Shown in pieces: positions 3,672-59,600 of a DNA stretch of 64,000 nucleotides. This DNA comes from Arenicola marina (taxonomy: Eukaryota; Annelida; Polychaeta; Arenicolidae), in NCBI GenBank assembly GCA_964019135.1, contig OZ025257.1, positions 28,318,352 through 28,382,351 of the forward strand, written 5' to 3'. The notes under the pieces were generated by a model. It did no database searches and was not told the DNA's origin. It saw only the letters and a list, made by a program, of their open reading frames with translations. Numbering within the stretch: the first letter of the stretch is position 1; each line of letters opens with the position of its first letter. A program made the position numbers and the translations under genes.

Positions 3672-4500
3672 CCCCTCCTACTACGACAGACCTCATGAGA
3701 CCTACAATTACTTGAGTGACGTCATGACCACACTACTCACTTCCGAGTGACGTCATAAGTACATCGCCTACCCCAGGGTAAACGCCATGGCTACAACACA
3801 CACCACCGGGTAACTCCGTGACTACACCCCACCCCCCGGGTAACTCCGTGACTACACCACACCCCCTGGGTAACGCCATGACTACACCACCCACCCCGGG
3901 TAACGCCATGACTACACCACACCCCCCCGGGTAACGCCATGACTATTCCACACACCCCGGGTAACTCCGTGACTACACCACACACCCCGGGTAACGCCAT
4001 GACTACACCACACACCCCGGGTAACTCCATGACTACACCACACCCCCCGGGTAACTCCGTGACTACACCAAATCCCTCGGGTAACGCCATGACTACACCA
4101 CCCACCCCGGGTAAAGCCATGACTACACAACACCCCCCGGGGTAACGCCATGACTACACCACACACCCCGGGTAACTCCGTGACTACACCACACCCCCTG
4201 GGTAACGCTATGACTACACCACACACCCCGGGTAACTCCGTGACTACACCACACACCCCGGGTAACTCCGTGACTACACCACACCCCCCGGGTAACGCTA
4301 TGACTACACCACACACCCCGGGTAACTCCGTGACTACACCACACCCCCCGGGTAACGCCATGACTACACCGCCCAGCCCCGAGTGGGGTCATGATCACAC
4401 CACACATCCTATAGTGACGTCATAAGTACACCACACACACTGTAGTGACGTCATAAGTACACCACACACACTGTAGTGACGTCATAACTACACCCCTCAC
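3672..4500. repeat. 29-31-bp minisatellite abutting the AGXT2 exon 12 splice donor
   Basis: From about 3,780 to 4,380 the unit is 30 bp (CCCCGGGTAACGCCATGACT followed by ACACCACAC). From 4,385 to 4,500 it is 29-31 bp containing GTGACGTCATAAGTACACC. Both share GGGTAAC/CATGACTACACC with the 55-bp array to the left, so all three look like one family. Read on the minus strand, the intron's first 29 bases are themselves a unit: GTGAGGGGTGTAGTTATGAC then GTCACTACA, compared with GTGTGTGTGGTGTACTTATG then ACGTCACTACA for the next. The 10-residue periodic reading frames here are repeat by-products. Confidence 0.93.
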
Positions 4501-4650
4501 CTGGCTTGTCACGAGTTCCAAACCAATCATCAGACCCTTGCCTCTGACGTCCCCGACGACGTCAAACTGTGCCTGCAGCTTGGCCAGCTCCAGAAGCATG
4601 TAGGTGCCTAGGTCGCGGCTCAACTCCTGGCAACCTTCCTCCTCAATCAC
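4501..4650 (-). CDS. AGXT2: AGXT2 coding exon 12 (last in window)
   Basis: A 50-codon exon: [20 protein letters not shown] ... [22 protein letters not shown], matching the [15 protein letters not shown] segment of the family. The donor GTGAGG begins at 4500 and is also the first bases of the minisatellite that fills the following intron to the window edge. Confidence 0.93.
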
Positions 4651-56600: not shown

Positions 56601-59600
56601 AATGCGAAGTGAATGATCAGAAATGATTGATCTTACCATAACTTATCTCTTTATCACGCGCGTTCGTGAGTGATCAATAAAAACTTACAACTGTAGAAGG
56701 GAAGACACCGACGGCCCCGGCAGGAGGCGCCCATCCCCCCTGGTGTTCCGCGGGGGGTGCGGACCCTCCCATTCCGGGCGCCGGGCCCCTGACGGCAGGC
56801 CCTGGAGGCGCACCATAGCCCGGGGGTACAAACGGCGGGGCATGACCCATCATAGGGAAGCCTCCTCCTCCGCCGCCGCCGCCGCCGCCCCCACCGCCAC
56901 CTCCCTTGCCGTTGTACCCCCCAAAGTCATCGTCAAGGGGTGGCTTGCCGTCCGCACTCAGAGACAGATCTATTAAACTCTCGACCTGTGTGCCCGGTTC
57001 CTCCTAAATAATGAAGGAAACCTATACTGTTGATTTCAGCAAAATATTACACAACATCTTTACATGATATCATCAATCCTTGAGCATTGTTCGGAATGCA
57101 GTAATGATAATCCACACGGGGTTCCGTGTTATGATACATACATAAATGTTTTCAATAGCTTTTATGCATATATGCGATCCGTATAGCGACAAAGGCGATA
57201 TATATTGTGCTGTAGCATTACTTATTATAAATACAAACTTGTTAACTATCAGAAGGTAAGTACATCACATGAAACCATTAGTCCGTTTTATACAATAACT
57301 TCATAACCGTCCGTCCCCTGTACATGCCATAACCGTCCGTCCCCTGTACATGCCATAACCGTCCGTCCCCTGTACATGCCATAACCGTCCGTCCCCTGTA
57401 CATGCCATAACCGTCCGTCCCCTGTACATGCCATAACCGTCCGTCCCCTGTACATGCCATAACCGTCCGTCCCCTGTACATGCCATAACCGTCCGTCCCC
57501 TGTACATGCCATAACCGTCCGTCCCCTGTACATGCCATAACCGTCCGTCCCCTGTACATGCCATAACCGTCCGTCCCCTGTACATGCCATAACCGTCCGT
57601 CCCCTGTACATGCCATAACCGTCCGTCCCCTGTACATGCCATAACCGTCCGTCCCCTGTACATGCCATAACCGTCCGTCCCCTGTACATGCCATAACCGT
57701 CCGTCCCTGTACATGCCATAACCGTCCGTCCCCTGTACATGCCATAACCGTCCGTCCCCTGTACATGCCATAACCGTCCGTCCCTGTACATGCCACATAC
57801 GTTCATAATCATTGGATCAGCCTCGAAAGGAACCTTGTAGGTCCTGGCAATCTCTATCATGTAATTCTCAACCAGTATCTTGGGTGGAGCAGAAATACTC
57901 ATCTTGTGGACCACCTACGTTGAGTAACAAAACAATTTAGCTTCCTTAGATAGGTTTTAATGTAAGAAATGTGTTGTATCATAAGACATCTACAGACCCT
58001 TTGTAGTTATTAAAGCGTCGCTCGGCAGCTAGCATTAAAACAGGGAAGAAATCCTTACGCATGTACACAAAAGTTCTTACAATTCCCAAGATCTAAACTT
58101 TATACTGATATCGTCCTACGGTCCCGTTATGTATAAATAAATAGAAAAATAGCACAGAAATACTTGAAAAGACTGCTGAAGTAACGTGTTGCAAGTATTA
58201 CGTCATGAATAGATTGCATACGTTTGATGGTGACTCATTATTGCGTGCTAAACAGTCACAACAGCTCCATATTATTTATTGTTAGAAATACATTTCGTAA
58301 AACGTTACATAAGTTAGTTCTATGAGTATGATATCATAAGCTGTTTATGGCCTAACACGCTTACCTTTTCATTGACATTTTCGAAACCATTCTTTCTGCA
58401 CATTTCAGCATATTCTTTGCCATATTTTAATGTAAACTGGTTTGATACCTTTGAGGAAAGCAGACAGTCACTATAGTAATATAGATCGTACGTAGCAAAC
58501 ACGCATAAACCAGTGATATAAATTCCAACCTCAAGAGCAAATACGGAGATACGTTTTTCTGTCTGCAGAGGAAAACATCTAATGCATAGATCACTGACTG
58601 GATGAAAATAACAAAGAATAACGACATGCAAAGAATAACAGGACATCTTGCTACCGTCACGCACGAAACATATATTTTGAAGCAATAATTATGTCTCATT
58701 AACAATAAATTACACTTCATCTATAACTTTGCTCGTCGTCATCGAAAAGCTTGTTAAACCTTCAATTGGCTTACAATCGAGAAGTGAATGCTACCTTTGA
58801 ACGATAATGTTTGCAGTCAAGGATTGTCCTAACCTACCTCTTTGAGTTCCTGTATATCTGAGGACAGTCTGGGTGCTGCCCAGATAATTGTGGCTATTGC
58901 CTCTTCTAAGCCAGGGTCAAGTTCCCTATAAAGAGGAAAAAATAGACGAGATGAAACCATGCCATGCTTATATTGACAATAAAGCTTTGCACATTAAGCA
59001 TTATGAGGAAACATCATATTTCGTACAAATTCTACAAAAGAGGTTATTGAATATATATGTCATCAAATCAAGCCAAGCACATATCCCTTGGGGCTCCTTG
59101 CACAATTAACACTGATAATAAAGGGTTAGAACGACATATCTAATGTTATCTTTACGATTTCTTGCAAATATAACACTGCTGAAGGATGGTACTATATCTC
59201 ACTTCATCTTTTCAATCAGTCCAAATCTTGCCAAAAGTAGATCACAGAACATTTCTATGATTTCCATGGCTTCCACCAGGTAGTCCTCGCGCACAATGTG
59301 TTCCACCTGAAGTGACCAAATCATTCTCCAAATTGTAACACCAGTTAAAACAGTCTGTATCAAAGAGACAAATGGTGGGTTGGTTAATGCACTCACTTTG
59401 TCTGCTATATCGCTTTTCTTTGATATCGCTAATTTCTTTAGCATTTGTCGTTATAGATCACAAAAAATATTACGGTACATTAACCAAAATAACAATAAAT
59501 GTGAATATTGTCATAAGATGACGACCGTAAGATGAAGAAAGCATTACCGGTATTCTTCAGGTCTCGACATGTGTCTACTCACACGTATTCTGGCTCTGTC

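Follow-up and report, generated by a model that had tools for sequence, protein, structure and literature searches.

The window, that is, the whole stretch of DNA analysed, comprises 64,000 nucleotides of contig C10 (28,318,352-28,382,351) within the 867-Mb assembly of Arenicola marina. TRF located many tandem arrays in it, and the following genes, splice sites and arrays are those on which the analysis turns (positions within the window):

1..4370, minus strand: 30-bp and 55-bp arrays in the intron that begins at 4500, with a similar core, GTGTAGTCATGACG, in the minus reading by eye (TRF)
4397..4494, minus strand: 31-bp array of 3.2 copies adjoining the 4500 donor, TRF gap 6
4495..4500, minus strand: 5' splice site GTGAGG of an intron leaving the window leftward (splice scan)
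4501..4650, minus strand: coding exon of a class-III aminotransferase with the end ...GLELVTSQ (translation and donor scan; Pfam PF00202, E 4.7e-7)
8559..9076, minus strand: 16-bp array of 34 copies with 11-bp variants, gap of 9 to the 9085 donor (TRF)
9080..9085, minus strand: 5' splice site GTAATG, placed by eye, the exon to its right being an open frame
50268..51337, plus strand: 21-bp array over the last codons and stop TAG (50286-50288) of an ENTR1-like gene (TRF); not a splice-site case
57302..57795, minus strand: 26-bp array of 19 copies, gap of 5 to the 57800 donor (TRF)
57795..57800, minus strand: 5' splice site GTATGT of an IST1 intron, placed by eye
57801..57914, minus strand: IST1 coding exon VVHKMSISAPPKILVENYMIEIARTYKVPFEADPMIMN (Pfam PF03398, E 8.9e-5; IST1 PDB chains, E 5e-11)

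The aminotransferase gene is presumably AGXT2 or AGXT2-like. The exon ending at 9086 has an open frame but no Pfam match and was assigned to the same gene by eye. The donors at 9085 and 57800 were both set by eye, their exons being absent from the output of the donor scan. In our own gene models, three other intronic arrays of at least 3 copies lie away from donors, at 10659-10863, 12132-13151 and 33041-47521. The last of these is a 14.5-kb array of approximately 293 copies of a 50-bp unit with 96% matches (TRF), situated 237 bp from the predicted donor and occupying most of one intron of the gene that also carries the 50268-51337 array, which we take to be ENTR1-like.

Several further features of the window were observed. 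A fold-back element at 6046-7331 has inverted arms of 431 nt (89%) and 126 nt (90%), and similar sequence was seen by eye near 14100-14950 and 48770-49330. Between 20500 and 22640, a 300-nt stretch that includes the tail of an array is duplicated at a spacing of 1180 bp with 100% identity, the duplicate appearing longer by eye. Sequences resembling tRNAs were noted by eye at 47520-47610 and 49367-49440 and are perhaps SINE heads; ARAGORN found no tRNA gene in the 64-kb window.

An earlier note on this DNA had placed three arrays at or within about five bases of a donor. The association is real, as judged by TRF and the predicted donors, although the gaps of 6, 9 and 5 bases are slightly wider than was claimed. 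The accompanying suggestion that the first bases of the intron are a diverged first unit is best supported at 4500, plausible at 9085 and unsupported at 57800. Locus L079 on C4 carries a copy of the 4500 exon and donor with 91% identity over 289 columns, together with 3.1 units of which the first, by eye, starts at the GT; the same junction has more than 4 kb of arrays in the window intron. It is possible that L079 represents an early stage of the 4500 array. When junctions were ranked against the arrays, that at 9085 came 5th of 105 for its own array and that at 57800 came 83rd of 105, while exon tails compared with the window arrays starting at +5, +6 and +9 ranked 83rd, 62nd and 6th of 105. 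None of the three spans the exon-intron boundary and their units lack an exon tail; they constitute a weaker border class that abuts the donor. The probability of an array falling within 10 bases of the donor, or across it, was 0.034 and 0.10 for the two window introns to which the estimate applies (acceptors by eye), the intron at 4500 extending past the window edge. A fourth array, said to start at a stop codon, does overlap the stop, but it begins at 50268, 18 bases before the TAG, and so also covers the last codons. By eye, its unit itself contains TAG.

The three window arrays had also been described as independent births. Units do differ between most genes, from which it follows that most arrays arose independently. 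The IST1 unit is an exception in that relatives with 71-76% identity occur in arrays on C17 and C5, so that a birth at its own donor cannot be inferred. A 16-bp array at L080 (C17:29633600-29634050) consists of 25 copies of GATGGCATGTACAGGT, the core of which, GGCATGTACAGG, is common to the IST1 intron unit. A transposon origin of the window units was considered and rejected from searches with two of the three: the aminotransferase junction was matched elsewhere once, by a duplicated exon fragment, and the IST1 unit by the relatives given above.

Outside the window, 101 introns were sampled from CCT chaperonin, myosin, kinesin and SNF-transporter genes, four conserved families, of the same 867-Mb genome. 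The genome was searched with Pfam families, approximately 272 kb were fetched, and collinear exon matches were paired. Donors and acceptors were set with a generic splice matrix under frame, stop and profile-position constraints, the exon ends being predicted. The rows used were 103 of 145 for CCT and myosin, the remainder lying outside the fetched stretches, 105 of 134 for kinesin, 95 of 101 for SNF and 6 of 13 for aminotransferase, none of the latter among the counted introns. Forty exon pairs were dropped as non-contiguous, at a segment edge or without a splice found, as were 3 more without a splice solution; 14 of the 34 planned SNF and aminotransferase regions, and the Aldedh matches, were left out. 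Kinesin and SNF introns longer than about 2.3-2.6 kb were read at both ends only, and split array halves were joined for the final count. The acceptor side of the pairing at C11:24855250 is doubtful. A muscle-type myosin gene at L023-L024 (C4:367700-387699) has single exons multiplied as in mutually exclusive sets, profile positions ~110-154 and ~590-640 each occurring four times.

The sample initially held 102 introns, 48 from CCT and myosin and 54 from kinesin and SNF genes. One, L069, was removed when its supposed exon turned out to be one of the copies within an 81-bp array of more than 2.7 kb. This array, L078 together with L069 (C13:2722900-2726108), contains at least 34 copies of the exon tail and donor of an SNF transporter, and the family search had taken one of them for an exon.

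Seventeen of the 54 arrays in the 101 introns had their start at the donor or upstream of it, where uniform placement, under a null that allows a unit to overlap the exon edge by up to one period, predicts 4.1 (P 6e-8). At acceptors, 5 of 54 arrays spanned the boundary (P 0.39), which is about the chance level. Paralogous SNF introns have units in common; with three of them removed, 14 of 47 arrays remained at donors (P 7e-6). The first sample of 48 introns and 25 arrays gave 7 arrays within 5 bases of the donor or across it, compared with 1.2 expected under a null with a fixed 25-base overhang and 2 arrays at acceptors; the one-period null raised the expectation to 2.1 (P 0.002). The second sample, L069 included, gave 11 of 33 against 1.9 under the one-period null (P 2e-7). 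Raising the splice score to at least 4 or at least 6 left 16 of 43 (2.6 expected) and 13 of 32 (1.9 expected) at donors, respectively. The proposals that minisatellites in this genome grow from 5' splice sites, and that chance placement there is unlikely, are thus upheld by an independent sample, and the predicted excess of array edges at donors over random intron positions was found in these 101 introns outside the window, rather than genome-wide. An annotation-free count over both strands of the whole genome, of matches rather than of independent arrays, gave 3803 cases in which the 9-mer CAGGTGAGT, a strong donor, occurs twice at a spacing of 24-54 bp; a permuted 9-mer gave 1752, the reverse of this permutation 1450 and the reversed donor 1171.

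Sixteen of the 17 donor arrays began 4-66 bases inside the predicted exon, and one at 0. The repeated unit consists of the tail of the exon followed by the GT-bearing head of the intron, arranged head to tail in 2 to 83 TRF copies; at L043, for example, ctggccaacctgggcaacgtcatcatggctctggccaacaag/GTACGTCCCCACAGCGTGA (the slash marking the boundary) recurs at 61-bp spacing. TRF periods lay between 28 and 229, a few of the longest being multiples of a shorter unit by eye, and in many of the sampled genes the repeated segment with its predicted 5' splice site measured about 28-133 bases. Base changes separate many units from each other. The GT was retained in 242 of 256 anchored copies from 15 arrays (L069 included; L075 had no anchored copy). 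Ordinary intronic minisatellites have a similar unit size and tandem arrangement, but differ in position and content from these arrays, which repeat the splice junction of the host gene itself.

Arrays away from donors were of another kind. By likeness to the exon tail, 1 of 37 was in the top 5 of 105, against 1.8 expected; that single case was the window array at 9085, the count outside the window being 0 of 34. No strong donor was present in any of 11 interior units of at least 300 bp. The arrays form two classes, the interior ones being unlike their own exon tail, and the idea that interior arrays are old, decayed donor arrays was unsupported by the ranking. Across array units of the first sample (52 arrays of at least 3 copies with 15-200 bp units), donor-like motifs numbered 10 in sense and 2 in antisense at score 4 (p 0.04), 5 and 0 at score 5 (p 0.06) and 3 and 0 at score 6 (p 0.25), a weak strand bias. 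Donor scores were higher at array-bearing introns (5.4 vs 4.0, p 0.002); stronger donors were discarded as a distinguishing feature once the comparison was made with long introns free of arrays (p 0.08).

The presence of a donor array was linked to intron length: 1 of 38 introns below 500 bp carried one, 2 of 33 between 500 and 1000 bp, 3 of 11 between 1 and 2 kb and 11 of 19 of at least 2 kb. Arrays of at least 500 bp lay at donors in 12 of 18 cases, compared with 5 of 36 smaller ones (Fisher 1.6e-4), and the median length as seen was 931 bp for donor arrays and 347 bp for interior arrays (p 3e-4; 16 vs 18 arrays, L069 included). Enrichment at donors was not significant for arrays below 500 bp (5 of 36, P 0.06) or for those with fewer than 3 copies (3 of 26 against 1.8 expected, P 0.25), nor was the contrast of young and grown arrays by copy number (Fisher 0.12). 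Since the excess is strong from 500 bp upwards and weak in smaller arrays, the bias would seem to lie mainly in growth or persistence and less in birth. GC and G content are confounders of this growth bias.

In the parts read, the 17 arrays contained 313 downstream copies of the GT, one array having none. A score equal to or higher than that of the real donor was obtained for 266 of these, and a single copy of the 313 kept the reading frame open, as judged from the frame of the predicted protein. Splicing at a downstream copy would therefore nearly always break the protein, and the first copy is probably the one usually spliced. CCT subunits, kinesins, myosins and transporters presumably must work, which likewise points to normal use of the upstream-most copy.

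On the basis of the sequence, many long introns appear to have been lengthened by head-to-tail copying of their own 5' splice-site region. The reading we favour, with a probability of roughly 0.7, is that these are splice-junction minisatellites, in which a duplication of the donor region has grown into an array while the upstream-most copy is spliced. A short tandem duplication near the donor may have arisen by slippage or by repair between short matches, and would then have been enlarged by unequal exchange. Such an array would be tolerated because the upstream-most copy, beside the real exon, stays the one that is spliced. Units that bear a donor and are G-rich on the sense strand would most likely expand easily in transcription and do little harm.

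What drives the growth is a separate matter. The earlier note had named R-loops, and instability coupled to transcription, in which duplication and growth alike are driven by R-loops or G-quadruplexes where exon-intron junctions are G-rich, is possible, though we would sooner doubt it than adopt it. Sense-strand G-richness around array-bearing donors hints in that direction: over intron positions +7 to +46 the sense G fraction was 0.35 vs 0.24 (p 3e-4) and GC skew was 0.25 vs 0.00 (p 0.01; 18 vs 84 introns, L069 included), and the sense G fraction of the unit followed array length (rho 0.47, p 0.0014, 44 arrays). However, the latter correlation was not significant in interior arrays alone (p 0.06), GC skew was uncorrelated with length over all arrays (p 0.31), some donor arrays, such as one with a 28-bp unit, are not G-rich by eye, and the composition of an array may be a consequence rather than a cause. 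The suggestion that donor-bearing units attract U1 and keep 3' ends from forming prematurely, allowing the intron to lengthen unharmed where other arrays cannot, accords with the concentration of the bias in arrays of at least 500 bp, with retention of the GT in most copies and with the greater length of donor arrays among units of GC at least 0.5 (14 vs 14, p 0.04); U1 telescripting itself is described in excerpts of PMC5499120. We consider it unlikely, as long interior arrays without donors exist (L043, with a 33-bp unit in 47 copies, L062/L063, with a 45-bp unit, and the 14.5-kb window array) and homogenisation by itself could retain the GT. Still less probable is tolerance alone, whereby duplications fall anywhere and the donor-spanning ones are visible as harmless. 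Rescue by the first copy of a protein that downstream copies would break, and the lack of clear donor enrichment among small arrays, are in keeping with it, but the period-overlap null leads to an expectation of 4.1 in 54 where 17 were seen, and acceptors fit that null.

Two further explanations appear highly improbable. Intron gain by tandem genomic duplication, in which an intron is born from a duplicated exonic AGGT stretch, is described in the portion of PMC4974935 available and modelled in that of PMC3087553, and AG/GT is frequent in the present units. Both processes involve duplication around AG/GT, but there introns are created, whereas here pre-existing introns are lengthened. The SNF introns at ...WRFPYLCYKNGG/GAFLIPY... 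and ...ICPLFRG/IGYA... recur at identical protein positions in a number of paralogs, of which some have arrays and others lack them, and the myosin intron at ...FEIF/..NSFEQ... is common to five genes, none with a donor array; the intron positions are thus older than the arrays. In the fully read cases, moreover, donor arrays stop at least 153 bases ahead of the acceptor. Chance or artefact, through edge effects of TRF, mis-set exon ends or assembly errors, has in its favour that exon ends are predicted, that one was mis-set at L069 and that the C11:24855250 acceptor is in doubt. It is difficult to reconcile with the overlap of 16 of 17 arrays with the exon by 4-66 bases, with units that vary by base changes and with an excess that survives tighter splice filters.

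Returning to growth of arrays from a duplicated donor region, a wider formulation would make copying of an intron's own 5' splice site the main route of intron lengthening in this lineage, with U1-bound copies harmless and able to run to kilobases, other arrays staying small, and a spliceosome that, out of as many as some 80 equal donors, reliably takes the one furthest upstream. Taken as a whole, this combination is rather doubtful.

The resemblance to amphioxus 'mirage' minisatellites that the earlier note had suggested is borne out by the available text of PMC3087553 and PMC3902484, in which mirages are tandem units of tens to approximately 160 bp over exon-intron boundaries, many with AG/GT, and normal splicing is said to persist. 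PMC3902484 concerns amphioxus PGBD5 and, in the same text, names Adh and troponin C. The likeness lies in units that span the boundary (16 of the 17 sampled donor arrays) and carry splice signals (GT in 242 of 256 copies). As far as those texts go, mirages occur in few cephalochordate genes and at both boundaries, with globin 6 haplotypes of 3 and 6 copies, whereas in A. marina 17 of 101 sampled introns are affected, the excess is on the donor side only and up to 83 copies are present. The window's three arrays, unlike mirages, abut the donor without an exon tail. In the present genome a muscle myosin exon scored best with chain 3i5f, then with 1dfk, 1b7t and others, before Myosin-7; these being chains of squid, scallop and vertebrates, a spiralian, mollusc-like affinity is probable on this single exon. 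Amphioxus was rejected as the source, a GFP family search, whose control also gave nothing, adding weak evidence by finding no match. What is new in relation to amphioxus is how often such arrays occur, their bias towards donors (the acceptor serving as internal control), the association with long introns and large array size, and the number of copies reached. Among the open-licence papers listed by a literature search, titles and the starts of abstracts showed no comparable arrays outside amphioxus.

Gene prediction and homology searches are prone to call copies within such arrays as extra exons, as happened at L069. These introns also offer a large natural experiment in the choice of 5' splice site, in that dozens of copies, many with the same sequence, are in competition while a working protein would come from the first alone. 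The outcome expected in them differs according to whether the site is chosen by exon definition, by first-come co-transcriptional commitment or by proximity to the 3' site. For the genome of A. marina, copying of the donor region would represent a concrete and common route by which introns lengthen.
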